Part shown: positions 1,614-60,010 of the stretch, piece after piece
How the letters are laid out: the number at the start of each line of letters is the position of its first letter
Position numbering within the stretch: the first letter of the stretch is position 1
NCBI RefSeq assembly: GCF_006494715.1
Contig: NZ_CP041151.1
Location: 1,488,001 to 1,552,000 of the forward strand
Reading direction: 5' to 3'
Source of the DNA: Shewanella sp. SNU WT4
Lineage (GTDB): Bacteria; Pseudomonadota; Gammaproteobacteria; Enterobacterales; Shewanellaceae
DNA: 64,000 nt
The notes under the pieces: generated by a model
What the model was told of the DNA's origin: nothing
The model's database searches: none
What the model saw: only the letters and a program-made list of their open reading frames with translations
Program-made: the position numbers and the translations under genes

Positions 1614-1942
1614 GGTCACATCCAGCATGTTGTGGCGATAACTCGCCTAGGTGTCTTGTGAACTCGAGTCGCGCGTGATTATTAAGAACTAAGCGTCTGC
1701 ATATTAGCACTCGCTGACTCGCTAATTTATCGGTGTTAAATATAGCGTAAAACCTTACAAATAATAGTGTTGTTTTGGTAAAGAATCCTGGCTATTTTTG
1801 CAAAAATGAGAAAGCGGTAAGTCAATGAAATTAAAGTGATTTAATCTATGATTGGATGGTTTTTATAAAATTCACAACTAGAAAATATAAAAGTGAAACA
1901 CAGGCGCTAGGGCCTGTGTTTCTTTATCACTTTAGTTGCTGT
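1614..1942. other. Intergenic region between dld and lldE
   Basis: About 330 bases separate the stop of dld from the start of lldE. The part next to dld holds a perfect hairpin (1895-1922). The rest is AT-rich and should hold the lldE promoter, although I cannot assign a convincing -35/-10 pair. No open frame of interest is seen. Confidence 0.6.
1895..1922 (-). terminator. Hairpin terminator downstream of dld
   Basis: Two 11-base arms (GAAACACAGGC and GCCTGTGTTTC) match perfectly around a six-base loop. On the minus strand the hairpin follows the dld stop by about 20 bases and runs into a T-rich stretch. It suggests that lldEF is transcribed mainly from its own promoter rather than only by read-through from dld. 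Confidence 0.7.
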
Positions 1943-4738
1943 TTAGCGGGTACACTCTTCGAGTAAATAGGCTAAGTGGCGATAAGAAATACCACTGTGC
2001 TGGCTAAGTCCGACTTCACAGGTGCGGTTAGCGTAGTAACCTTCGCTGATGTCTTGCGGCAGTAACTTTTTGATATTGCGCAGGGCACTGGCATTGATTT
2101 CAGGTTTATACAGGCCTTTTTCGCCAGCATAACCGCAGCACTCAATTCCCTCTGGGCGCACAATTTCTTTGGCGCAGGCATTGGCTATGGCCAACATCTT
2201 ATCTTCCATATGCATATGCTTAGCCGAGCAACCTAAATGCAGTGCGACTTGCGCTTTGGGCGTAACACTCAGCTTTGGCAGCAAGTTATCGTGCATAAAC
2301 TCCACCATATCGATTAATTCGATATTAGGATTCCCTTGCAAGGTGCGCTTAGTGCAAGACAGAGCATCTATGATCACAGGTAATTTGCCTGAGCCTGAGA
2401 TTTCACTCATGGCTTGGATGAGTTGCAAACGCTTAGCATCGGCATTTTTAAAATCACCCTTAGATTCCCACATTTGGCCGCAACATAAGTCTCGGGTATT
2501 GTCTGGAATAATGACGTTATAGCCACCGCGCTCCAGCAAGGTGATGATTACCTCTGACAAGCTGCGCTTATCTGTATCTTCTGGCGTCACGCCAAAGGTG
2601 CGACCGCCACAAGCGGGGAAATAGACTACGGTTTTTTGGTCGGCTTTTGGCATGCTAGGTGTAGCTATGCTGGCGCCTTTGGGGAAACTTGGGTTCCAGT
2701 AAGGCACTTCTTTAGTGACCATGCGCCCCACATTCATCAACCCTTGGGTAAATTTATCGCCTGTGAGCTTATGGATAGTGCCAAGGACATTAAAGCCAGT
2801 GCTTATCACTTGATTGACGACACCATAGTGCTTGGCTTGAAAATCTAACACTTTTTGCTCAGTGCTAGTGATGTAAGGCGTGCGCAGTTTACGCACCAAT
2901 TGCCCCATTGCATTATCGACAGGGCAGGCGATAGTACACAGCTGACAAGCCGCGCAAGTATCCAGCACATCATATTTAGCGGCAGCGCGCATTTCAGCGG
3001 CGGCAGTTTTATCACCGCTTTGCTCTAAACGCTCGATTTCGCGTAAGGTGGCAATGCGTTGGCGCGGCGACATATTGAGCGCTGAAGTTGGGCAAGTTTT
3101 CTCACAAAAACCGCACTCGATACAGCGGTCAATATAATCATCCACCACAGGGCAAGGCTTAATGTTTTTGACATGCACTTGGCTGTCATCATTAAGAATT
3201 ACCCCAGGGTTTAACAAACCTTCTGGGTCGAACAATTGCTTAATGTTTTTCATCAACACATAAGCATCATGGCCCCATTCCATTTCCACAAAGGGCGCGA
3301 CCGCGCGGCCAGTGCCGTGCTCGGCTTTCATTGAGCCATCGTATGTATTAATCACCATATTGGCCACATCTTGCATAAAGTGATCAAAACGTTCGATATC
3401 GGCCGCTGAGGCAAAGGTCGGGGTGATAATAAAGTGGAAGTTACCCGCTAATGCATGGCCATAAATCACGCCTTCTGGGTAGCCGTGCTTATGGAATAAT
3501 TCAGTTAAATCGCGAGCGGCAGCGGCTAAATGCTCAAGTTCAAACGCCACATCTTCGATAATGACAGAGGTGCCTTTGGGGCGAGCGCCACCAATAATAG
3601 GGAATAAGCCTGAGCGCATGGCCCAATATTTACCGTAAACCGCAGGATCGCGACTAAAGCTGATTGGGCGCTCAGTGTCGATATGCGCAAGCTTAGCAAT
3701 CACATCAGCCGTATATTGGCTAAGGGTATCGGCGTCATTGGCGCGCGATTCAATCAACAAAATAGCGGCGCCGTCAGGCAAGTCGCTGAGCCACTCTGGC
3801 ATGCCAGGCTTACCTGTGATGGACTTAATTGACGCCCAATCAAGTAACTCCACCGCAGCAACACTGTCACCGACTAATGGCGGCACAGCGCGGGCGGCAT
3901 CTTCCATATTGAAAAATACGGCTAAGGCTGAAGCTTTACATAAAGCCTCATCAACTGTGTGATAAGTAACTTCTTCAACAAAGGCTAAGGTGCCCTCAGA
4001 GCCCACTATCAGATGATTGATAATATCGAACGGGTCATTAAAATCGATGAGCGCATTGAGGCTATAGCCAGTCGTGTTTTTAATGGCGTATTTCTTGCGG
4101 ATACGGCTTGCGAGCTGAGTGTTAGTTTGCGTCATGTGCGCGAGCTCAGTTAACTGCTTCAGCAGTAAACCATGGCTTGCGGCAAAGGCGGCTTTTGAAT
4201 GCGAGCAGCCCGTATCCAGCAGGGCGCCATCAGCAAACATTAGCTTGGCGGCCGCTATGGTTTGATAGCTGTTTTGCGCTGTGCCACAACACATGCCAGA
4301 TGCATTGTTACACACTATGCCGCCCACTTTAGCTGAGGCTAAGGTGGCTGGATCTGGACCTATCTTTTTATTGAAAGGTTTAAGCTTGGCGTTGGCATCG
4401 GCGCCAATCACGGCGGCGCCGAGGCGTATTTGGGTCTTATCTTCATTGACTTCCATGGTACGAAAGCCATCAAATCCCAGCATTAATAAAATGCCGTCAC
4501 CCACAGCTTGACCAGAAAGACTGGTACCTGCGGCTCTAAAGGTTACTGGAACCTTATACTCGCGGGCGGTGGCTAAGGTTGCTTGGACATCGGCTAAGGT
4601 ATCGGCATGCACTACCCACTGCGGCACTATGCGAAAATAACTCGCATCGGTTGACCAGGCAAAACGGCGCACCGGGTCATTAGTGACCTTATCGCCGAGT
4701 ACGCTGCGTAATGCATTGAAAATCACTTCAGAATTCAT
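1943..4738 (-). CDS. dld: FAD/4Fe-4S D-lactate dehydrogenase (Dld-II type)
   Basis: A 931-residue fused enzyme. The N-terminal half is an FAD-binding type 4 domain (FRAAGTSLSGQAVGDGILL, IVCNNASGMCCGT) plus an FAD-oxidase C-terminal domain (VIYGHALAGNFHF, MKAEHGTGRAVAPF). Next come two 4Fe-4S motifs, CIECGFCEKTCP near residue 538 and CAACQLCTIACP near residue 595, and then CCG domains (CCGQMWES, CCGYAGEKG). This architecture is that of the membrane-associated D-lactate dehydrogenase known as Dld-II in Shewanella, which oxidises D-lactate to pyruvate. It lies between the permease and lldEF. About 130 bases separate it from lldP, so co-transcription is likely. Length and motifs are complete. Confidence 0.93.
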   Translation of the reverse strand: MNSEVIFNALRSVLGDKVTNDPVRRFAWSTDASYFRIVPQWVVHADTLADVQATLATAREYKVPVTFRAAGTSLSGQAVGDGILLMLGFDGFRTMEVNEDKTQIRLGAAVIGADANAKLKPFNKKIGPDPATLASAKVGGIVCNNASGMCCGTAQNSYQTIAAAKLMFADGALLDTGCSHSKAAFAASHGLLLKQLTELAHMTQTNTQLASRIRKKYAIKNTTGYSLNALIDFNDPFDIINHLIVGSEGTLAFVEEVTYHTVDEALCKASALAVFFNMEDAARAVPPLVGDSVAAVELLDWASIKSITGKPGMPEWLSDLPDGAAILLIESRANDADTLSQYTADVIAKLAHIDTERPISFSRDPAVYGKYWAMRSGLFPIIGGARPKGTSVIIEDVAFELEHLAAAARDLTELFHKHGYPEGVIYGHALAGNFHFIITPTFASAADIERFDHFMQDVANMVINTYDGSMKAEHGTGRAVAPFVEMEWGHDAYVLMKNIKQLFDPEGLLNPGVILNDDSQVHVKNIKPCPVVDDYIDRCIECGFCEKTCPTSALNMSPRQRIATLREIERLEQSGDKTAAAEMRAAAKYDVLDTCAACQLCTIACPVDNAMGQLVRKLRTPYITSTEQKVLDFQAKHYGVVNQVISTGFNVLGTIHKLTGDKFTQGLMNVGRMVTKEVPYWNPSFPKGASIATPSMPKADQKTVVYFPACGGRTFGVTPEDTDKRSLSEVIITLLERGGYNVIIPDNTRDLCCGQMWESKGDFKNADAKRLQLIQAMSEISGSGKLPVIIDALSCTKRTLQGNPNIELIDMVEFMHDNLLPKLSVTPKAQVALHLGCSAKHMHMEDKMLAIANACAKEIVRPEGIECCGYAGEKGLYKPEINASALRNIKKLLPQDISEGYYANRTCEVGLSQHSGISYRHLAYLLEECTR

Positions 4739-4868
4739 CAGTTGAAATATTTCCTGTAGAAGAGATAGTTAAATATGCGAGCCTAGGCTTAAGTTACTTT
4801 AGTTAAGTGCTTAAGTTAAGTGGCTTAATTTGAGTGGCTTAGACTCGCACATCATTTATTGTGTCTCG

Positions 4869-6524
4869 TTAAAAACCGCCCCAAATATACGCCAAGGTGC
4901 CAGCTACTAAAGCGTAGGCCAAGGCTACAGGCATGGTTTTACGAATAATTTCTGATTCACGCCCAGCCATACCCACAACCGTGGCAGCGGCAACGACGTT
5001 CATCACACACATCATGTTACCGGCGTTCGCGCCTATACCTTGCAAGGCTAAAATCATGGCGTGATTGGCGCCAATATTATCGGCAACACTGTATTGCAGC
5101 CCAGAGAACATCATGTTGGAGAAAGTAGCGCTGCCTGAGAGGAAGGCACCAAAAATACCGACGATAGGTGCCATCCAGCTCCATACCGCGCCCATGGAGT
5201 TAGCCAGTAAATCCGCCAGAGCCACAGGCATAGAAGCAAGGCCTGAGCTGTTTTCGCCTGAGTTCAAGAAGATTTTCACCATAGGCACAGAGGCACCAAG
5301 GGAAATAATGGTAGGCAGCATAGCTTTAGCTGAATCAGACACTGATTGCTTGATAGCGACTTTATTCATGTTAAACAGCCAGAAACCTAAGATACACACG
5401 GCCACAAAGAAAGCGCCTGGGGCATACAGGGTGGCAAAGCTTGCCTTAAGTTCTGTCCCTAACAGGCCGGTCCAATTAATGTTAAAGCCAGATAAGAAGC
5501 TCTTAATTGGCGCAACTGTGCGCGATAACACCAATAAGGCTGCCATCACTAAATACGGCGTCCATGCGGCAAGCTGTGAAAACTTGGCGGCTTTAAGCTC
5601 AGGTTTACCTGCGCTCGCGTTGGGCTCACCATCATTTTCAGCAAAATCAAACCAAGGGGTTGCTGGTAATAACCAGCCTTTTTTCGCCACTGGGATAACG
5701 AGCGCCATACCGATTAAGGCGCCAATCACAGATGGGAACTCAGGGCCGGCAAAATAGTTGATTAACCAGGCTGGTATTGTGAAGGACAGACCGGCGAACA
5801 GGGCAAACTTCCACACTTGTAAGCCTTCTTTAAACGACTTATTGCGCCCAAAAAAGCCGGTCAGCATAGCGGCCATGACCACAGGAATTAAAGTGCCGAC
5901 AAACAAGTCTAAGGTGATCATGTGCATAGCAATGAACTGCGCATAATCATTAAAATTGCCGCCGTGCGCTGCAATTTGCTCGGCAGCCATGTTGACGCCG
6001 CCTTGGGTTAGGCCTTGCTCCATACCAAACAGCACAGGTAAACCAATGGCGCCAAAAGAGACTGAAGTTGAGTCAGCAATTAAAGCCACTACCGCGGCTG
6101 CGATTGGCGGAATGCCGAGCAGTACCAGTAATGGCGCGCCGATAGCAGCTGGGGTACCAAAACCGGCTGAGCCTTCAATAAAGGAGCCGAACAACCAACA
6201 AATAATTATCACCTGCACCCGCGCATCGGCGCTGATGTTAGTGAAACCTGCGCGTATAGTATCCATGGCGCCAGAATGTTTAAGGGTATTAAGTAAAAAC
6301 ACCGCGCCAAAAATAATTGAGAGCGGTGTTAATGCCGATAATAAGCCTTCAACTATGGAGGCAGATAAGAAGCCTACGTCCATTTTCCAAATAAAGACGG
6401 CGGCTAACGCAGTCAGTATTAATGAGATTGGCATAGCTTTAGAGGCGGGCATTCGCATTAACACTAAAAATAACATCACGCTTATCACAGGGGATAAACT
6501 GGCAAGTATTTGTAAAATCGTCAT
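4869..6524 (-). CDS. lldP: L-lactate permease, LctP family
   Basis: A 551-residue, highly hydrophobic protein with a dozen or more predicted membrane segments. It carries LctP family signatures such as WLFGSFIEGSAGFGTPAAIGAPLL (residues about 110-133) and the C-terminal ALQGIGANAGNMMCVMNVVAA. It imports lactate (and probably glycolate) with protons across the inner membrane. It heads a minus-strand run lldP-dld-lldE-lldF, so uptake and both lactate oxidases are encoded together. The ATG at 6524 starts MTILQILASLSPV. The long upstream gap carries a large inverted repeat that may be its operator. Confidence 0.92.
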   Translation of the reverse strand: MTILQILASLSPVISVMLFLVLMRMPASKAMPISLILTALAAVFIWKMDVGFLSASIVEGLLSALTPLSIIFGAVFLLNTLKHSGAMDTIRAGFTNISADARVQVIIICWLFGSFIEGSAGFGTPAAIGAPLLVLLGIPPIAAAVVALIADSTSVSFGAIGLPVLFGMEQGLTQGGVNMAAEQIAAHGGNFNDYAQFIAMHMITLDLFVGTLIPVVMAAMLTGFFGRNKSFKEGLQVWKFALFAGLSFTIPAWLINYFAGPEFPSVIGALIGMALVIPVAKKGWLLPATPWFDFAENDGEPNASAGKPELKAAKFSQLAAWTPYLVMAALLVLSRTVAPIKSFLSGFNINWTGLLGTELKASFATLYAPGAFFVAVCILGFWLFNMNKVAIKQSVSDSAKAMLPTIISLGASVPMVKIFLNSGENSSGLASMPVALADLLANSMGAVWSWMAPIVGIFGAFLSGSATFSNMMFSGLQYSVADNIGANHAMILALQGIGANAGNMMCVMNVVAAATVVGMAGRESEIIRKTMPVALAYALVAGTLAYIWGGF

Positions 6525-8119: not shown

Positions 8120-8713
8120 ATGACCAACGAATCAAAACAGGCGCAAGCCGACAATGAAGAAGTGATTACTGAAGAAATGGTAATCAATCAGGAAGGCGCT
8201 GATGAGTCGAATTTAATTGACGAATTAACTCAGGCTAATTTTCGAGTTGAAGAGTTAGAGCAACAATTGCTTGCTGCTGAAGCTACTGTCGTTGAACAGA
8301 AAGATTCAGTCGTACGCGCTGCTGCTGAAGTTGACAATATTCGTCGCCGCTCAGCCGTTGAGGTAGAGAAAGCGCGTAAGTTTGCACTGGAAAAGTTCGT
8401 TTCTGAATTATTACCTGTGATTGACAACATGGAGCGCGCATTAGCTGCGGGCAATCCAGATGATGAAGCCACTAAGGCGATTCATGAAGGTGTTGAGCTG
8501 ACCTTAAAAACCTTAACTTCGGCCGTGGCCAAGTTTGGTGTGGTGCAAGTCGACCCTATGGGTGAAGCGTTCAACCCTGAGCAACATCAAGCCATTGGCA
8601 TGCAGCCAAGCACTGAATTTGCGGCTAACACCGTAATGATGGTGATGCAAAAAGGCTTTATGTTAAATGAGCGTTTATTGCGCCCAGCTATGGTCATGGT
8701 GTCACAAGGCTAA
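8120..8713 (+). CDS. grpE: Nucleotide exchange factor GrpE
   Basis: A 197-residue protein, the same length as E. coli GrpE. It has an acidic N-terminus, a long helical coiled-coil region (residues about 35-90, with [21 protein letters not shown]), and the C-terminal beta domain ending [18 protein letters not shown]. It releases ADP from DnaK in the heat-shock chaperone cycle. The ATG at 8120 follows GGAGTTAGGA. A TTG start five codons upstream is possible but has no ribosome site. The gene stands alone between a heat-shock promoter and a strong terminator. dnaK is not in the window. Confidence 0.95.
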
Positions 8714-8797
8714 GCCCAAGGCATCAACCTAAGACATCACAGAGTTGAGTGAGTTAATTAAATTCCTCAACGGTTAGCGCCACAAAATTAGCGCAAC

Positions 8798-8826
8798 AAA
8801 AAGGACAGCTTAAGCTGTCCTTTTTT
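8798..8826 (+). terminator. Rho-independent terminator of grpE
   Basis: A self-complementary stem AGGACAGCTTAAGCTGTCCT is flanked by A-run and T-run, about 85 bases after the grpE stop. With A and T runs on both sides it could also work on the opposite strand. Confidence 0.85.
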
Positions 8827-8873
8827 ATTTGCTTATTTAAGCGTTTTTTACACTTGAGCGCTTATTTGAGCGT

Positions 8874-8896
8874 GGCTATTTAATGCTTAAATAGCC
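8874..8896 (-). terminator. Hairpin after dxs
   Basis: GGCTATTTAA and TTAAATAGCC form a 10-bp stem around TGC just beyond the dxs stop. It lacks a clear T-run on the minus strand, so its terminator activity is uncertain. Confidence 0.4.
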
Positions 8897-8902
8897 TTAG
8901 AC

Positions 8903-10771
8903 CTAAATGGCCATATACGCCTTGATTTGCGCTAACATGCCTACGCTATCAAGCTGTAAGTCATGCTTGATTTCATCAGGGCCACCATGCTTGATAAATT
9001 CATCCGGCAGGCCGATTTGCAGTACCGGTTTACCCACTTTGTGTTTAGCCAGTAATTCCAGCACGCCGCAGCCTGCCCCGCCCGCGATGGCATTTTCTTC
9101 AATAGTGACTAATACATCATGGCTGCGCGCAAGTTCAAGCACTAAGGCTTCATCTAAGGGCTTCACAAAGCGCATATCGGCCACACTGGCATCTAACTCA
9201 TCTGCCACGATTAAGGCATCGGCTAAGGTTGTACCAAAGTTAATCAAAGCAATCTTCTGTCCTTGACGCACTAAGCGACCTTTACCAATTTCCATGGCTG
9301 TCATAGCTTCAACTTGCTCAGCACCGGTCGCACTGCCACGAGGATAGCGCACCGCACTTGGGCCATCTTGATAGCAGTAACCTGTGTACAGCATTTGGCG
9401 ACATTCGTTTTCATCGCTTGGCGTCATGATCACCATGTTAGGGATGCAGCGCATAAACGAGATATCAAACGCCCCTTGATGGGTTGGGCCATCGGCGCCA
9501 ACAATGCCACCGCGATCGATAGCAAACAGTACCGGCAATTGCTGCAAGGCAACATCGTGAATGAGCTGATCGTAACCGCGCTGCAAGAAAGTCGAGTAAA
9601 TGGCAACTACGGGCTTATACCCTTCACAGGCAAAACCTGCGGCTAATGTCACCGCATGTTGCTCGGCAATGGCCGCATCAAAATACTGCTCAGGGAAGCG
9701 CTGTGAAAATTCCACCATACCTGAGCCTTCACGCATGGCAGGGGTAATGGCTAACACTTTTTCATCGGTGGCGGCAATATCACATAACCATTTACCAAAC
9801 ACTTGTGAAAAGGTTGGTAAACCTTGTTTAGTGGCCGGTTTTTTAAACTGACTTGGGTCAAATTTAGGCACAGCATGCCAGCCGATAGGGTCTTGCTCCG
9901 CTGGGGCGTAGCCTTTACCTTTTTTGGTCATAATATGCAGAATTTGCGGCCCTTTGAGGTTACGCATATTACGCATGGTTTCGACCATAGCATCGACATC
10001 ATGGCCATCAATCGGGCCGATATAGTTAAACCCTAACTCTTCAAACAAGGTGCCAGGAACTACCATGCCTTTAAGGTGTTCTTCAGTGCGCTTAGCCATC
10101 TCTTTGATGACAGGCATACCTTTAAGCACCTTCTTACCACCTTCGCGTATGGTGGTATAAAAGCGGCCAGACATTAATTTAGCGAGATGATTGTTGAGGG
10201 CGCCAACGTTCTCTGATATCGACATTTCGTTATCATTGAGCACCACTAACATATCTTTATGTAAGTCACCGGCGTGGTTCATGGCTTCAAATACCATGCC
10301 GCCTGTCATGGCGCCATCGCCAATCACAGCCACGACTTTACGGCCAGCAGCTTCTTTATCCGCGATAACCGCCATAGCTGTTGCCGCACTGATAGAAGTG
10401 CCTGAGTGACCCACACTGAAGGTGTCGTATTCACTTTCTGGGCGCCATGGAAACGGATGCAATCCATTTTTTTGACGTATGGTGGGCATACGGTCACGGC
10501 GGCCAGTCAAAATCTTGTGCGGATAGGCCTGATGACCCACATCCCACACTAAACGATCAAACGGAGTGTTATACACGTAATGCAGCGCGACAGTTAATTC
10601 AACTGTCCCAAGGCCTGAGGCAAAGTGACCGCTAGAAATGCCCACGGATTTTAACAGAAACTCTCTGAGCTCATCTGCCAGTTGCGGTAACAATTCCTGA
10701 GGCAGTTTTCTCAGGTCTTCTGGGGTATCGGCTTGGGCCAATAATGGATATTGAGATATGTCCAGAGTCAT
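8903..10771 (-). CDS. dxs: 1-deoxy-D-xylulose-5-phosphate synthase
   Basis: A thiamine-diphosphate enzyme that joins pyruvate and glyceraldehyde 3-phosphate, the first step of the MEP isoprenoid pathway. It shows the N-terminal [20 protein letters not shown], the ThDP motif starting [18 protein letters not shown], and transketolase-type pyrimidine ([15 protein letters not shown]) and C-terminal domains. The ATG at 10771 ([13 protein letters not shown]) gives 622 residues and aligns with the known N-terminus. An ATG four codons upstream has a slightly better AGAG leader and cannot be excluded. It follows ispA by about 20 bases and is third in the operon xseB-ispA-dxs, the same order as in E. 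coli. Confidence 0.94.
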
Positions 10772-10793
10772 AGTGAGATTCATTGTCTCTATG

Positions 10794-11675
10794 TTATGTT
10801 CTTCGCGCGATGATATATCGGGCGAAGTTGGCAAGAAGCTGGCTATTGTACGGTAACTTAGTCAGCGCTGATAGTGCATCCTGGATTAGCGCATCGGCGC
10901 ATTGCTGCGCGCCGGCTAACCCTAAGAGCTTAGGATAAGTACTTTTATTGGCTTCAGTATCTGAGCCTTGGGGTTTACCCAGCTCTTCGGTCGTCGCCGT
11001 AATGTCTAAAATGTCATCGTGCACCTGAAACGCTAAGCCTACGGCATTGGCATAATCAAGTAAGGCCGCACTGGTGGCGTCATCGGCATCGGCGCAAATC
11101 AGTGCCATTTCAACGGCGCAGCGAATTAACGCGCCTGTCTTCATGGTATGCAGCTGCGTTAAGGTCTCAAGATCAATGGTGCGATTGGTAGAATTAAGAT
11201 CTATGGCTTGACCGCCGCACATGCCTTGAAAACCAGATGCTTTGGCTAAACAGCGCACTAACGCCAATTGCTGCGCAGGACGCAGGGGTAAATCTTGGCG
11301 ACTAATGATTTCAAACGCTAAGGTTTGCAGCGCATCGCCCGCTAAAATGGCATTGGCTTCATCAAAAGCAATATGCACCGTCGGTTGGCCGCGGCGTAAG
11401 TCATCATCATCCATGGCTGGTAAATCGTCATGAATGAGCGAGTAAGCATGAATACATTCAATGGCAGCGGCGCACGGGTCGAGTTTAGCTAAGTCGACAT
11501 TAAGCATTTCGCCAACGCTGTAGACCAAAAATGGCCGAATGCGTTTGCCCCCTAACAGGGCTCCATGGGTCATGGCGGCTTGTAATGGCGCATCGATACT
11601 CGGCAAACCTGCCAAATGTTCAGTTAATTGCTCATCGATACGAGCTTGGTATTTTTCTATCGCAACAGCTAGCAC
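10794..11675 (-). CDS. ispA: Farnesyl diphosphate synthase (geranyltranstransferase)
   Basis: Condenses isopentenyl diphosphate with DMAPP and GPP to make farnesyl diphosphate. Both aspartate-rich motifs are present: [14 protein letters not shown] (first, near residue 85) and DDILD (second), with [11 protein letters not shown] and [12 protein letters not shown] choose a GTG start at 11675, 293 residues. It lies two bases past the xseB stop and AGG is spaced correctly inside the end of xseB, a translational-coupling layout. An ATG at 11687 overlapping xseB is the main alternative. It supplies FPP downstream of Dxs, its operon neighbour. Confidence 0.92.
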
Positions 11676-18962: not shown

Positions 18963-18988
18963 AAAAAGGATGCCTAGGCATCCTTTTT
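18963..18988 (+). terminator. Terminator of rlmM (left copy of a duplicated terminator)
   Basis: AAAAAGGATGCC and GGCATCCTTTTT form a 12-bp stem around TA, about 30 bases after rlmM. A copy differing by one inserted T lies at 22506-22532 next to icd. The two copies bracket the accessory island. Confidence 0.9.
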
Positions 18989-19138
18989 GTTTGCTAGGTT
19001 TTTGTTATATGTATAGGTTGTCTAGCTAAATGTAATTAAGTAAAGTAAATTTATAAGGTTGTATCTAAAGGCTCCCATTTATCCGAAGAAACTAAACTGT
19101 TTAAAGCAGGCCTTAAGTGCGTCAATCTACAAATCAGA

Positions 19139-19147
19139 CTCTAATGG
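19139..19147. repeat. Target-site duplication, left copy
   Basis: CTCTAATGG stands directly before the left end of the insertion sequence and is repeated exactly at 20686-20694. Nine bases is the duplication length of IS50/Tn5. Confidence 0.95.
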
Positions 19148-19166
19148 CTGTCTCTTGATCAGATCT
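19148..19166 (+). repeat. Inside-type terminal end of the IS50-like element
   Basis: The 19-base end CTGTCTCTTGATCAGATCT is the Tn5 inside-end sequence, and its last base meets the transposase stop codon. Confidence 0.92.
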
Positions 19167-20593
19167 CATAGCGTTTCTCCGGCTTCAAATAGGGCTTTGG
19201 CTAAGCGATACCCCTTTACCTGAGCCTGAAGATCATCCCATCCCTCCCAAATCGTGGACCAGCTGGCCATTCCCGTGCGCTTGCTATCATTAAAGCCTCC
19301 TAGTTTGGCCAAGGATTGATAAGCCCACTTCATATTTGGGGCTTCTTTGCCTTTATGTCCCCTTGGCTTGTAGAGCTGCATCAGTACTCGCCATTCATCA
19401 TTCTCTAAGACATTGCTGCAGCTTTGATTTTCCATGCTTTGCGCTGCTTCGATTTGCCCTCTTTTTCTCAGATAAATTGGCTGGCTCATCACTTCCCGAA
19501 GTTGCAGTAGCCGCACACCAATAAAGCAAAGTATCGAGGCCGCTCGCTCAAGGTTGTCTGGCGATGTCATGCGTAACCTTTCAACCCCCGCGCCGGTTTT
19601 CCACGCCTTATGAAAGTCCTCAATGCGCCATCTAGTGGTATAAATATCAATCACATGAAGTTGCTGCGCCAACGTGTCAATCGGCTCACTGGTCAGTAGC
19701 ATCCAAGATAGTCCATCTTCACCTTGGGGAGGATTGAGCTCTTGTGCGTACACCACATTAATCGCATGCTGCTGACGATTATGTTTGATGTTAACCGCAC
19801 TGGCTTTGAGGGTGAGTTTGGCTGTTCGCGAGGGACGATTCTTGCTTTTCCCACTGGCTTCCTTTATGCCTTTTTGTGGGATGGCGATGGTGTATCCGCC
19901 GGTAACGGGATGACTATCCATGTGCTCAAACAGCTTAGCCTCGTATTCTACTAGGTTTCTTGCATGTTTTGCCCGCACCACAAACCGTTCACTATGTGAT
20001 TGTTTATCCGATAAATAATGCATGATATCCGCTTCTCTATCACACACTGAGATCACTCGCGACATGTGAGCCTGCAAGCGTTGCCGCGTAAAATAGGATG
20101 CATCGGCCCATTTACCGCTCTCTTTTTCATCGGCCTCGTTGGGATTATCAGGTCGACACCACCAATCTTGGTGGATCAAGCCCAAGGTCCGAGAAGTATG
20201 GCTATCCAGTAGCAAGACAGAATGAACCCACCAACCACGAGACTTATCGGTAGGTTTGCCTAATTTCCCTAATTCAGACGCCACACTGTGCTTATAACTC
20301 AGGGCTGTCGTGTCTTCGAGAGCAAGTATTTCATTTATATTTTCAATCGCTTGGGCGGTGCGAGCAAAACCGGCGGCTCTGATCATAGATGGGCTAACAT
20401 TATCATTGCGGATCAATCGATAGGCTCCTTCGAGTTTGGCATCTTCACCATTACAAGATCTGGCAACCGATTTACCGCTGCCAACCGCCATGTGTTCAGC
20501 GACGACGGTTAACCTTGCCGCTCGTCGTTTATCACCTAGCTCAGCATGATGAAAGTGATCATATGCCCATTTGTTCGGGTTAAAAATTGACAT
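19166..20593 (-). CDS. IS50/Tn5-like DDE transposase (IS4 family)
   Basis: A 475-residue transposase, practically the length of Tn5 Tnp (476). Domain order is the N-terminal end-binding domain (WAYDHFHHAELGDKRRAARL), then the RNase H-like catalytic core. The DDE residues appear in LEDTTALSY (first Asp), VCDREADIMHYL (second Asp) and the Y-(2)-R-(3)-E-(6)-K signature YTTRWRIEDFHKAWK. It cuts and pastes the element using the 19-bp ends. The frame is undamaged. An internal start producing an inhibitor, as in IS50, is possible but was not resolved. Confidence 0.93.
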   Translation of the reverse strand: MSIFNPNKWAYDHFHHAELGDKRRAARLTVVAEHMAVGSGKSVARSCNGEDAKLEGAYRLIRNDNVSPSMIRAAGFARTAQAIENINEILALEDTTALSYKHSVASELGKLGKPTDKSRGWWVHSVLLLDSHTSRTLGLIHQDWWCRPDNPNEADEKESGKWADASYFTRQRLQAHMSRVISVCDREADIMHYLSDKQSHSERFVVRAKHARNLVEYEAKLFEHMDSHPVTGGYTIAIPQKGIKEASGKSKNRPSRTAKLTLKASAVNIKHNRQQHAINVVYAQELNPPQGEDGLSWMLLTSEPIDTLAQQLHVIDIYTTRWRIEDFHKAWKTGAGVERLRMTSPDNLERAASILCFIGVRLLQLREVMSQPIYLRKRGQIEAAQSMENQSCSNVLENDEWRVLMQLYKPRGHKGKEAPNMKWAYQSLAKLGGFNDSKRTGMASWSTIWEGWDDLQAQVKGYRLAKALFEAGETL

Positions 20594-20666
20594 TAAAAAT
20601 GATGAAGTGAGTGAATTTGCATGATCTGATCATCGCCAGTCAAGAAAGTTCCATTTTTTGCTAATA

Positions 20667-20685
20667 ATTTGTGTAGAAGAGACAG
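20667..20685 (-). repeat. Outside-type terminal end of the IS50-like element
   Basis: Read inward on the minus strand it is CTGTCTCTTCTACACAAAT, close to the Tn5 outside end CTGACTCTTATACACAAGT. It lies upstream of the transposase gene, as the outside end does in IS50. Confidence 0.9.
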
Positions 20686-20694
20686 CTCTAATGG
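20686..20694. repeat. Target-site duplication, right copy
   Basis: CTCTAATGG directly after the right end of the element, identical to 19139-19147. Confidence 0.95.
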
Positions 20695-20836
20695 TAGTCA
20701 AAACATATAATGCAGAAGAAACTTGATGCATTGCTAGCCTTTTGAGACCGTATTCTCTTATCTCTTCCCACATGGATTTCGACATTTAAAATTTTATGGT
20801 AGCTTAAGTTCCTCAATTTCTGATAGTTATAGCTAT

Positions 20837-21553
20837 ATGGTTTACATAGAAAGAATAGTTAGAAAGATGAACCAGGGGCAGACAGGTCCATATCTCTGTG
20901 TCGGAAATAATGGCATGCATTATATTGTAAAGGGTCCGAATACAACTTACCGAGGTTTAATCCGTGAATTTGTATGTGGAAAGCTTGGCAAAGCGATCGG
21001 ATTACCAGTACCTGACTTTGAAATTGTATATGTTGATCGTTCTTTACTGGAATATGGGAACTATGAGCTAAGTGAAGGGGATTGGTTCGCTTCAAAATAT
21101 GAAGAAAACATCCAAGATGTCCCCTATCAAAGGTTAAGTGACTTAGATGCCAATGGCTTGAAACTACTGTTTCTTTTTGATTATTGGATAAAGAATGATG
21201 ACCGAACCCTTACTGAAAGTGGTGGCAACCCCAATTTATTTATACGATCGGATCTTACTTCTTTTATCGTACTTGATCATAACTTGGCTTTTGCAGCAGA
21301 CTATGATGATTGCTTTGAGGAACGTAAAAACCTCCATGTTAGTGCAAGTATTTGGTTTTCTCAGCAAATGTCTTTATTTGATAAAGAAAACTACGAAGAA
21401 CTGCTCGGCAAATGCTTTGAACAACTAGATCCAATGTTGGATGCTATCCCAGATGAATGGCTCGAAAACTGTGGAGATGATGGTATTGTAGATGGGATTC
21501 GAGTAACATTGGCGCGCTTCAAAACCGCAGAATTTTGGGAGGGTATAAAATGA
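20837..21553 (+). CDS. HipA-like kinase (HipA_2 type), partner of a DUF3037 protein
   Basis: A 238-residue single-domain protein of the HipA/PI4-kinase-like fold. I see a GQTGPYLC glycine loop (residues about 14-21), a nucleotide-site lysine in HYIVKGP (Lys32), a catalytic segment WIKNDDRT...GGNPNLF (residues about 118-137; Asp and Asn of the HipA N-x-D/N signature), and a metal-binding LDHNLAF. No HipB-like DNA-binding partner lies upstream. Instead the stop overlaps the start of a DUF3037 gene. The ATG at 20837 lacks a good ribosome site but fits the family N-terminus. The region is AT-rich and forms an island with the IS50-like element. The substrate is unknown; a toxin-like or defence role is inference. 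Confidence 0.75.
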   Translation: MVYIERIVRKMNQGQTGPYLCVGNNGMHYIVKGPNTTYRGLIREFVCGKLGKAIGLPVPDFEIVYVDRSLLEYGNYELSEGDWFASKYEENIQDVPYQRLSDLDANGLKLLFLFDYWIKNDDRTLTESGGNPNLFIRSDLTSFIVLDHNLAFAADYDDCFEERKNLHVSASIWFSQQMSLFDKENYEELLGKCFEQLDPMLDAIPDEWLENCGDDGIVDGIRVTLARFKTAEFWEGIK

Positions 21554-22395
21554 AAAATTTAGTCCGTTATTCAGTAATTCGTTTTATGCCTTTTACTGAA
21601 ACTCAAGAGTTTGCAAATGTTGGTATTATTATTCATGCCCCGCAAACAGGTAGTGTGCTTTTTAAGTTAGCTAACAAACGATTTAGTCGTGTTTCTCAAT
21701 TTTTTGATGATCTTGATGGTCAGCTTTATTCTAATGCGATTGAAATGTTTTTCTCTGAACTTCAAAGAATTAAAGATTTCTCTAAAGGCATGCGTGGTAA
21801 AGAATTAGCAGGTTTTATTGATGAAGTTACGAGGCAACGAGAAGGATTTTTAACTTTTAGTCAAACGGGTGCTCTGTTGACTGAGGATCCATTAGAGCTT
21901 GTTTTAGAAAAGTTGTTTGAACAATACGTTGGCAGAAACTTTAACACGAAAGAACATCGTGAAACGCTTTTAGTAAGAAGCCTGAAGAAAAAGTTGGATA
22001 ATATCAGTAAGTATCCGTTTACTAAGAGCAAACTTAACGCTAATTATGTTTCTTTTGAATTGCCATTGGTTGCTTCAGATACTTTTACAACAAAAGCTAT
22101 CAAGCCTTTGAGTTTTTATCAGGATAAGCCTCTGAAATTGATAGACCATGGTGAATTTTGGATATCTAGAGTTAAGCATCTCTTAAACTCTAAAACGCTA
22201 ACTGCGAGTAACTTCCTTTTTGCAATAGAACGTCCTGAATATAAAGATAAAAATCTCGAGGCAGCTTTTAATTCTTTGTCAAATGAAATGAAGTCTTTGG
22301 GGGTTAATGTTTATGATGTTAATGACTTACATAGTATCGAGAGTTTCGCAAGATTTGACTCTGAATGTGCAGAGAATTTCCAATTATCGCATTGA
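21550..22395 (+). CDS. DUF3037 family protein
   Basis: A 281-residue protein starting MKNLVRYSVIRFMPFTETQEFANVGIIIH, the DUF3037 opening motif (YSVIRF.P...EFVNVGV). Its function is unknown. The start overlaps the HipA-like gene (ATGA) with GGGAGGG at ideal spacing, so the two products are made together and probably act together. The C-terminal half (residues about 170-281) is helical and less characteristic. Base composition is noticeably AT-richer than in rlmM or icd, a sign of transfer. Confidence 0.75.
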   Translation: MKNLVRYSVIRFMPFTETQEFANVGIIIHAPQTGSVLFKLANKRFSRVSQFFDDLDGQLYSNAIEMFFSELQRIKDFSKGMRGKELAGFIDEVTRQREGFLTFSQTGALLTEDPLELVLEKLFEQYVGRNFNTKEHRETLLVRSLKKKLDNISKYPFTKSKLNANYVSFELPLVASDTFTTKAIKPLSFYQDKPLKLIDHGEFWISRVKHLLNSKTLTASNFLFAIERPEYKDKNLEAAFNSLSNEMKSLGVNVYDVNDLHSIESFARFDSECAENFQLSH

Positions 22396-22397
22396 TT

Positions 22398-22422
22398 GCT
22401 TTACCATTTTAAATGGTAAAGC
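22398..22422 (+). terminator. Hairpin after the DUF3037 gene
   Basis: GCTTTACCATTT and AAATGGTAAAGC are perfect 12-base arms around one T, starting two bases after the stop. The tail is AT-rich but not a clean T-run. It most likely ends the two-gene transcript. Confidence 0.65.
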
Positions 22423-22503
22423 TAATAAATTGTTTGATAATGATTTTAATATTTAGCGTATAAGTTATGTGTTGTTTTTTTGTTGTAGAATGACTTGAGT
22501 AAC

Positions 22504-22534
22504 GCAAAAAGGATGCCTAGTGCATCCTTTTTGC
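22504..22534 (-). terminator. Terminator of icd (right copy of the duplicated terminator)
   Basis: GCAAAAAGGATGC and GCATCCTTTTTGC form perfect 13-base arms around CTAGT, 30 bases past the icd stop. The core is the same as the rlmM terminator at 18963-18988 apart from one inserted T. Confidence 0.88.
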
Positions 22535-22564
22535 ATTACTGGGTCAAAATTCGGGAGTAGAGGC

Positions 22565-23575
22565 TTAACCCAATCTATCCATAACCGCTTGGGTGAAATC
22601 GGTAGTGCCGTGGGTGCCACCTAAGTCGCGGGTGGTTCTATCGCCGCTGGCAATCACTTCGGATACCGCTTTGCGGATTTGCTCTGCCTTATCGGCCATG
22701 CCTAAATATTCCAGCATCTGAATCGAGGCCAAAATCACTGAGGTTGGGTTGGCTAAATTCTTGCCAGCAATATCTGGGGCGCTGCCATGTACGGCTTCAA
22801 AAATGGCGGCATCTTTACCTATGTTAGCGCCAGGAGCCATGCCTAAACCGCCCACTAAGCCTGCGCACAGGTCGGATAAAATATCGCCAAACAAGTTGGT
22901 GGTGACTATTACGTCAAAAATTTCAGGGCTCATCACTAGCTTCATGCAAGTGGCATCGACAATCATTTCGTCAGTAATAATATCTGGGTAGCGCAAAGCC
23001 ACTTCGCGGGCGACTTTCAAAAACAAGCCAGAAGTAGATTTCATGATATTGGCTTTGTGCACTATGGTGACTTTTTTGCGGTGCTCTTTGCGCGCCAGTT
23101 CATAGGCGAAGGTGGCAATTTGCTCGGCGCCTTGACGGGTAATCACGCTAGTAGCTTCGGCTGTGCTGCCGTCGGCCGAGATTTTTTGGCCTAAGCCTGA
23201 GTACATGCCTTCGGTGTTTTCACGTACTGTGATGATATCTATGTTGTCGTATCTAGCTTGGGTACCGGCAAATGACAATACTGGGCGGACGTTGGCGTAC
23301 AAGCTAAATTTTTTGCGTAAAGTGACGTTGATTGAGGTAAAGCCTTCACCCACCGGGGTAGTCAGTGGGCCTTTGAGGGTAATACGGTTTTTTTCAATCA
23401 AATCTAAGGTGCGCTGTGGCAGTAATTCACCGTGTTTTTCTAAGGCAGCTAATCCAGCATCGGCGAATTCATATTCGAAGTTACAACCCGCTTTATCGAG
23501 AATTTTAATGGCGGCATCAATAATACTTGGACCTATGCCATCGCCTGGGATGACAGTAATGGTTCTTTTTGACAT
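22565..23575 (-). CDS. NAD-dependent isocitrate dehydrogenase
   Basis: A 336-residue beta-decarboxylating dehydrogenase (IVPGDGIGPS-type start TVIPGDGIGPSIID). It has the isocitrate/Mg signature DIITVRENTEGMYSG, the lysine of KVTIVHKANIMKSTSGLF, and NLFGDILSDLCAGLVGGLGMAPGANIG. Its length and the C-terminal HGSAPDIAGKNLANP fit the monomer-size NAD-type enzymes rather than the about 415-residue NADP Icd of E. coli. It oxidises isocitrate to 2-oxoglutarate in the citric acid cycle and competes with AceA, encoded 38 kb away in this window. Related 3-isopropylmalate or tartrate dehydrogenases are less likely. Start ATG at 23575 (MSKRTITVIPG). Confidence 0.88.
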   Translation of the reverse strand: MSKRTITVIPGDGIGPSIIDAAIKILDKAGCNFEYEFADAGLAALEKHGELLPQRTLDLIEKNRITLKGPLTTPVGEGFTSINVTLRKKFSLYANVRPVLSFAGTQARYDNIDIITVRENTEGMYSGLGQKISADGSTAEATSVITRQGAEQIATFAYELARKEHRKKVTIVHKANIMKSTSGLFLKVAREVALRYPDIITDEMIVDATCMKLVMSPEIFDVIVTTNLFGDILSDLCAGLVGGLGMAPGANIGKDAAIFEAVHGSAPDIAGKNLANPTSVILASIQMLEYLGMADKAEQIRKAVSEVIASGDRTTRDLGGTHGTTDFTQAVMDRLG

Positions 23576-58815: not shown

Positions 58816-59433
58816 TGGTCACTGCAAGCTATCGAGAATGGCCTCAATCATAACTAAGCAAAGGTATGACTGACAAGGGTTAATAGCATCAAGCCTTGAA
58901 ACTGAGGCGATTTTTTAGCGCCTTGCTTGAGCTTGCTAAATTGCTGCCTAGTTTTTACCGACATTCAAGTCGTTGCCTGTAAAAGGCTATGGCTGCTACA
59001 CATCTGCTTAAAGCGATTGGCTAATCACTTGCTAGACCATTGAGTAGTTAGCTATGCGCAGTAATAAGTATGATTAGCGAATGAGAGTATCGTGATACCA
59101 ATCTTTGGCGCTGTAGAGCTAATTATCGAGGGCCGTTAATCATCTAATCCTGCCGCTTAACATGTATTTATTATGCAAGATCAATGATCTGACAAGGAAT
59201 CAATGGTTTTATATAGAACCCAGACGCTATGTTAAATCAGTAACTGTGACCTAGCTAGTTTGGGCTAAATAAACCACACCCGCCGTCGGCACTAAGTCTT
59301 TAGTCTAAAATTGCATATTTATTAATTTATTTTGCAATTTGACCAATAAAATTTTGAATGTTGGCAAATTAACATTTTGTCTGTTCAGCGCCTTATGCTG
59401 CCTTTCGATAATCAAGTTGACGTAAAGGTAAGA

Positions 59434-59451
59434 TTTAAACGCTCGTTTGAT
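59434..59451. promoter_or_regulatory. PsrA-like binding site upstream of aceB
   Basis: TTTAAACGCTCGTTTGAT has the AAAC-N4-GTTTG form of the PsrA fatty-acid regulator site. PsrA is known to link fatty-acid breakdown with the glyoxylate bypass in Shewanella-type bacteria. It lies about 560 bases before aceB, so a distant promoter or chance match is possible. Confidence 0.4.
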
Positions 59452-59894
59452 TGATGGGTGTGGGCATTCAAATATAAGCTATTGTTTTAGGTTAGATAAC
59501 TTAGTTGCCGCTAGAGATAATCCTAAACACCTTAGTCTCTAATCTCCTCAAATATCCCATAAATAAGTGTAATCATATAATTACACAGTGAAATTATATT
59601 ACGGATTTAATAACAACCGTTCCTTGCTGGTGCAGTTGTCAGACAAGTCACTCGCTATCGTTTTAACCTTAATTTTCATCTTAATAAAGTTGATTAAAAA
59701 CAGATGCTTGAGTCACCTTTGTTCTTTGGTATTACCAATTTAATTCGCACGCCACATAAGTAAAGTGATTGCTAATGCTGTTGCCGGATTGTTGCTTTAA
59801 CAAATATTCAGCGATAGGGTTAGTACTAATTCAACATTTGCAGGTTGAGCTGCTAATGCGGTGAAGTTTCATGGTTTAGGTGCCACTAGCATGA

Positions 59895-59910
59895 GGTGGA
59901 TATATCCACC
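59895..59910. promoter_or_regulatory. 16-bp perfect palindrome upstream of aceB
   Basis: GGTGGATATATCCACC is fully self-complementary and lies about 100 bases before the aceB start, where an operator would be expected. The binding protein is unknown. Confidence 0.45.
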
Positions 59911-60010
59911 ACGCCAAGCACAGCCACCTAAGCGCTAGCAGCTAAGCCGAGCTTGCGAACAACCTAGTTACATTAGTTACTCATGAATTAAGGTATTAAG
60001 AGGTATAACA

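Follow-up and report, generated by a model that had tools for sequence, protein, structure and literature searches.

The locus analyzed here raises the question of what a HipA-like kinase gene that overlaps a DUF3037 gene is for, and how the two genes came to lie where they do. They occupy positions 20837 to 22395 of a 64,000-nucleotide stretch from Shewanella sp. SNU WT4, called the window throughout; the genome comprises 4.13 Mb on two contigs. Judged by its sequence relationships, the pair is very probably a toxin-antitoxin type phage-defence module of the HipAD (PDC-M66) kind, held as a horizontally acquired two-gene cassette. The name HipAD is reportedly due to Brenes and Laub 2025. The original prediction, made from the letters alone, had cautiously suggested a toxin-antitoxin or defence module, and this was right, as it is supported by the PDC-M66 match and by homology to published tested systems. 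It had also claimed that no function was described for the pairing. That claim of novelty was wrong, since the pairing is known as PDC-M66, as DS-6/HipAD, as the Retron-Sda1 pair, and as HipA-HipD of phage PhiR5_1.

The first gene (20837 to 21553, forward strand) encodes a HipA_2 (HipA-like) kinase of 238 amino acids, the proposed HipAD toxin. A Pfam profile search matched PF20613 HipA_2 with E=4.2e-75 over residues 4-236, and the PADLOC models gave a match to PDC-M66A (4.2e-10) over part of the length, residues 6-154. Across 76 aligned kinases, N120, D122, R123, N131, N133, D147, H148, and N149 are invariant, and K32 is conserved in at least 90%. From what is known of HipA, we take these residues to serve ATP binding, catalysis, and metal binding. 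The second gene (21550 to 22395, forward strand, ATG at 21550) encodes a DUF3037 protein of 281 amino acids, the proposed antitoxin (HipD), which matches PF11236 DUF3037 with E=1.2e-20 over residues 7-127 and PDC-M66B with 1.9e-18 over residues 5-261. Structural databases add little: a PDB search with the single sequences of both proteins gave no meaningful match, a DUF3037 profile gave no credible match, and a kinase profile gave non-significant HipT-like matches, including HipT(Lp), with a best E of 0.082.

Four further features named in the original prediction are borne out. The HipA-type residues of the kinase are those listed above. The DUF3037 start overlaps the kinase stop in the sequence ATGA (21550-21553), behind the ribosome site GGGAGGG (21537-21543). 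The pair is AT-rich, the 1-kb step at 21001-22000 having the lowest GC in the window (0.365, followed by 0.375 at 59001-60000). Finally, apart from the pair there is no open reading frame of at least 80 amino acids between the IS transposase and icd, and hence no adjacent HipB-like gene.

Signals around the pair are less distinct. A perfect 12-bp hairpin without a T run, found as an inverted repeat, follows the DUF3037 stop directly (22398 to 22422, forward strand). A scan of 20600-22620 revealed one terminator-like site versus 1.1 in shuffled sequences, and a consensus promoter scan of the same region revealed two sites versus a shuffle mean of 6.7, thus not above shuffles. DNA similarity upstream of the pair extends to 20775, 20794, or 20835, depending on the relative, and the stretch from 20775 to 20836 (forward strand), which by alignment is partly shared with Vibrio copies, is a putative promoter or operator of the pair.

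Both genes belong to an insertion that separates rlmM from icd. As stated in the original prediction, the latter two are core genes that are usually adjacent: of 59 other Shewanella genomes, 48 have them in convergent orientation with no more than 334 bp between them, seven have a gap of 0.5-1.8 kb, and in four icd lies outside the covered stretch. The closest relative examined, whose RlmM is 92% identical, has an empty site: its rlmM and icd are separated by 80 bp that hold one GGATGC/GCATCC terminator. Pattern matching in the window revealed a left copy of this palindromic terminator on the rlmM side (18963 to 18989) and a right copy on the icd side (22505 to 22533), neither assigned to a strand; these two, one on each side of the insertion, are the only exact matches in the genome. 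The doubled terminator suggests an insertion with target duplication, the mechanism of the doubling being unexplained. At the rlmM-icd junction of another Shewanella (G125), transposase-like frames are seen at about 2741-3975 of L293.

An IS4/Tn5-type insertion sequence, recognized by transposase matches and a 9-bp repeat, lies on the reverse strand at 19148 to 20685 (transposase 19166-20593), and the direct repeat flanks it at 19139-19147 and 20686-20694. The genome contains 16 full-length, near-identical copies, 15 of them outside the window, a number which suggests a recent burst. The fresh IS that had been pointed out in the island is thus real, but it fails as a sign of mobility of the pair: having its own 9-bp duplication, the IS moved by itself and provides no evidence that it carried the pair. 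Its insertion is an event separate from the arrival of the pair. A composite transposon carrying the pair is ruled out by the same duplication and by the distance of about 200 kb to the nearest other IS copies.

Two observations support mobility of the pair itself: the site is empty in the closest relative, and the gene trees are discordant with the host genus. In a tree of 44 DUF3037 proteins, the window protein shares a group with copies from Vibrio and Photobacterium and a single one from Pseudoalteromonas (support 100/100; 67-85% identity), while other Shewanella copies show 44-51% identity and are placed elsewhere. The kinase tree agrees with the DUF3037 tree. The nearest named homologues of the pair are from Vibrionaceae, and DNA similarity to these copies covers the pair plus at most about 60 bp upstream. 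DUF3037 occurs patchily, in 9 of 129 Shewanella genomes. With an empty site in the relative, Vibrionaceae-like trees, a patchy distribution, and similarity confined to the pair, horizontal gain of the cassette is the most likely explanation of these sequence data.

The association of the two genes is highly constant among relatives. The adjacency survey proposed along with the original prediction found a kinase directly upstream and on the same strand at 75 of 80 DUF3037 loci in genomes (the best 80 of 244) and at all 80 loci in viral contigs (the best 80 of 94), many of the latter being alike and hence not independent. The other five genome loci comprise four without a kinase and one at a contig edge; a broader kinase profile did not reveal a kinase in these five either. 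For 69 pairs (the window plus 68 loci), the evolutionary distances of kinase and partner correlate with r=0.90, a value reached in none of 999 permutations; shared descent of the hosts contributes to this correlation. Relatives of the pair are also found on 21 plasmid records.

Several incomplete loci were observed. In G065 (L305, approximately 1712-5740), IS-like frames lie between the two parts of a split HipA_2 kinase and also ahead of DUF3037; the DUF3037 frame is whole, such that the toxin appears broken and the antitoxin kept. DUF3037 occurs without a detectable kinase in L144 (approximately 8586-10825) and L146 (approximately 8520-10831), where adjoining frames, read by eye, are presumably type I restriction subunits. 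Nitrincola tibetensis carries a shortened DUF3037 frame without a kinase (L085:9982-10432), 82% identical to that of the window over 142 residues.

Clustering near defence genes had likewise been proposed as a check. The near set comprised 137 proteins on either side of the pair in 23 loci (137/177 computed for 30 loci), and the far set 128 proteins (128/178) from the far ends of the same loci, after removal of the last locus and of any rows that also occurred in the near set. With a threshold of E 1e-15, 124 PADLOC models were hit by proteins of the near set versus 28 by those of the far set, a tally of models rather than proteins, in which a single protein may hit many models. None of the models had more than two near proteins matching it, and the far set contained restriction and CRISPR genes as well. 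The check therefore lends weak support to an enrichment near defence genes. By Pfam, no clear excess of mobile genes was found (Phage_integrase in 2 of 137 near versus 2 of 128 far proteins).

The junction between the two genes deserves separate consideration. The GGGAGGG site lies within the final codons of the kinase and is followed by the ATGA overlap (21537 to 21553 altogether, forward strand), as identified from the sequence and from anti-Shine-Dalgarno pairing. The computed pairing is -10.7 kcal/mol for the antitoxin versus +0.6 kcal/mol for the kinase start, for which no ribosome site is visible. Both in the window and in its nearer relatives, Phe-Trp-Glu and a few further residues form the end of the kinase; they are encoded by TTTTGGGAGG, right before the antitoxin ATG. 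An ATGA or GTGA stop-start overlap is found at 67 of 75 genome loci and 78 of 80 viral loci, and 50 of 69 pairs contain a Shine-Dalgarno-like motif within the final 18 bases before the kinase stop. The kinase ends with FWE in 38 of these 69 pairs and the Glu codon is GAG in all 38, versus 182 of 632 (29%) of the other Glu codons of these genes; of the two genes, the antitoxin has the stronger pairing in 55 of 64 pairs (the window plus 63 loci) and, among viral pairs, in 49 of 56, these totals being what is left of 76 and 80 when an ATGA/GTGA junction is required and the kinase start can be assigned; both the GAG and the pairing statistics overstate significance, as the pairs are related by descent. 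The ribosome site for DUF3037 thus appears to be located inside the C-terminal codons of the kinase. We read this arrangement as antitoxin synthesis that would be coupled to toxin synthesis and usually better initiated.

HipA_2 kinases also occur next to other proteins. Six Shewanella genomes reveal weaker HipA_2 matches and no DUF3037. In five of them (G023, G008, G094, G056, and G012, whose kinase misses the family cut-off) the kinase opens a two-gene unit; the second gene encodes 287-290 amino acids and overlaps the first by 4-7 bases or lies 3 bases apart (L300:3012-4639, L301:2666-4293, L302:368-2044, L303:2742-4418, and L304:2423-4050). The sixth, G097, has a kinase fragment with stops and stands outside the partner comparison. 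Four of the five partners were scanned and gave no Pfam match above cut-off and no PADLOC family. Partners were aligned in a group A of 5 proteins and a group B of 40 proteins. A1 against group B gave 8% in a first comparison, and the profile comparison of A with B gave 95% (E 2e-8). With group B, a 180-sequence DUF3037 profile reached 29% at a score of 34.6, the highest of 30 shuffles scoring 24.0; with group A it reached 0.7%, with a score of 19.7 that is below the best of 30 shuffles (20.2) and hence not above chance. Against A and B merged with six intermediate partners, the DUF3037 profile matched over 238 columns with 89%, E 2e-6, and a score of 51.3; as controls, none of 60 column shuffles scored above 17.4, and the icd, RlmM, and kinase profiles scored 14.5, 20.9, and 14.2, respectively.

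Among 398 Pseudomonadota genomes, 31 contain a HipA_2 match. A member of this broader set of partners is the next gene downstream of the kinase at 26 of 30 loci (one per genome, window included); seven of the 26 had entered the models, and earlier models without them still match six of these seven, the exception being L327. At the four loci without such a member (L329, L332, L333, and L336), the HipA_2 match is weak, and it exceeds the cut-off in two. For nine of the 26 partners (L317-L325), the match is confined to the DUF3037 domain. The frame of L325 measures 131 amino acids, which would make the DUF3037 domain the neutralising part, and a short form of this kind is a possible minimal antitoxin. 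Relatives of group B are found on plasmids of about 3.5 kb. One E. coli plasmid of 3,489 bp (L345, NZ_AP027872.1) has three annotated genes in all, two of which are a HipA-family kinase and a hypothetical partner that overlap by 4 bp (148-1835). A scan of viral contigs with a group-A partner revealed no relative.

These comparisons suggest that, where Pfam finds no DUF3037 partner next to a HipA_2 kinase, there is often an unannotated partner that appears to be related. We consider it rather probable that DUF3037 represents a single branch within a broader antitoxin superfamily, for the most part unannotated, whose members are usually encoded second after HipA_2 kinases throughout Pseudomonadota, that the branches without Pfam or PADLOC match and the short DUF3037-only forms are undescribed HipAD-like systems, and that a ribosome site in the C-terminal codons of the toxin is common in the DUF3037 branch. 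If so, HipA_2 kinases beside hypothetical proteins would be testable defence or plasmid-maintenance systems.

How would such a module work? The DUF3037 protein would bind and silence the kinase, and the strong ribosome site in the last codons of the toxin, with none visible for the toxin itself, would keep the antitoxin in excess, a simple account of how an operon with the toxin first stays safe. Infection would then remove or divert the antitoxin, either because a labile protein is lost after host shut-off or because a phage product is sensed. The freed kinase might phosphorylate an essential host factor, perhaps an aminoacyl-tRNA synthetase by analogy with HipA and HipT, and growth would stop ahead of phage release.

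Other readings account for part of the evidence. The pair could be a selfish addiction module that chiefly maintains itself, phage defence being incidental, as might be suggested by the plasmid records, the small group-B plasmids, and the patchy chromosomal distribution. We regard this as possible but on the unlikely side: according to the accessible parts of PMC12548924 and PMC13092281, relatives gave phage defence in tests by others, and the pair occurs at the viral-contig loci described above, one of them beside a prophage repressor. The roles of addiction and defence are, moreover, compatible with each other. A signalling or house-keeping kinase with its regulator, and no toxin, would suit a HipA_2 protein that is short, far from HipA by sequence, and without a significant PDB match. 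It is very improbable in view of the patchy distribution and the discordant trees, and partner loss was toxic in a relative (PMC12548924, accessible part).

A silenced remnant, with the promoter cut off by the IS or the kinase decaying, is a reading to which we give hardly any weight. The end of the IS and the kinase start downstream of it are indeed about 150 bp apart, and the terminal branch of the window kinase is longer than that of its partner (0.25 vs 0.053 in the gene trees). Yet the similarity to relatives starts no earlier than 20775, inside the IS junction, and both frames are open. At columns conserved to at least 85%, neither protein departs, and the dN/dS of the pair is approximately 0.05-0.1 versus four Vibrio and Photobacterium copies, wherever dS is unsaturated. 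Decay is ruled out by these kept columns and the low dN/dS; as far as such measures tell, both genes are intact and under purifying selection.

The defence module therefore remains our preferred reading, and the chromosomal locus can be identified, with this probability, as a recently acquired HipAD-type defence cassette. The pair itself holds limited surprise; the wider partner family and the ribosome site at the toxin end are worth following. Descriptions of the kinase target or the phage trigger were not found in the literature searched, and the window pair, a relative far from the E. coli pair, should be useful for finding both.

Among known systems, hipBA shares a HipA-type kinase with catalytic-type residues. 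It differs in its HipB helix-turn-helix gene, whereas the window pair has no adjacent HipB and the reverse order, toxin first; the HipA_C match of the window kinase is below cut-off (16.5 vs 30.5 bits). The likeness to hipBST lies in the short kinase and in HipT(Lp) being among the best, though non-significant, PDB sequence matches; hipBST, however, has three genes including HipS and HipB, neither of which is found among the window frames of at least 80 amino acids. Membership in either system is ruled out, as no HipB or HipS gene was found adjacent at this frame length. Ten organisations of Hip kinase operons are listed in PMC8262856, and the term "DUF" is absent from its main text.

The closer comparison is with HipAD. 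In its accessible part, PMC13092281 describes DS-6 as a HipA-related kinase with a DUF3037/DUF1829 protein which protects against phage and was renamed HipAD; a mutant in a catalytic residue lost protection, and contact between kinase and partner was predicted. DUF1829 is part of DS-6B as described there, but neither the window partner nor the HipD of PhiR5_1 matches it at E up to 10, and hence it does not define the family. According to the accessible part of PMC12548924, DUF3037 is strongly associated with HipA-like genes under the name PDC-M66, and one such pair adjoins Retron-Sda1 and was tested as a stand-alone toxin-antitoxin-like defence pair. There, DUF3037 deletion was toxic, kinase deletion abolished defence, and defence against phage Bas51 needed the kinase, with reverse transcriptase, ncRNA, and HTH gene dispensable. 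The Sda1 pair, from Sphingobacterium, has the same two domains as the window pair, but lies beside a reverse transcriptase; no such gene is among the frames around the window pair, which are rlmM, the transposase, and icd. In Escherichia phage PhiR5_1 (GenBank PV340545), the genes are labelled HipA toxin and HipD antitoxin and lie beside cI; "HipD" together with "antitoxin" was not found in the literature searched, which does not show its absence from print. Both PhiR5_1 proteins are related to those of the window over most of their length (HipA 31%, HipD 32% identical), and gene order, 4-bp overlap, and Pfam and PADLOC matches agree; the window pair is a marine chromosomal insertion as opposed to a prophage gene pair. 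Toxicity, neutralisation, and phage protection are reported for relatives (PMC13092281 and PMC12548924, accessible parts) and would extend to the window by analogy, the PhiR5_1 type being about 30% identical, and DS-6 and Sda1 being likened to the window pair by domain description. With a PDC-M66A-type HipA_2 kinase first and an overlapping PDC-M66B DUF3037 gene second, the window pair is, by its sequence features, a fresh instance of the already described HipAD/PDC-M66 kind.
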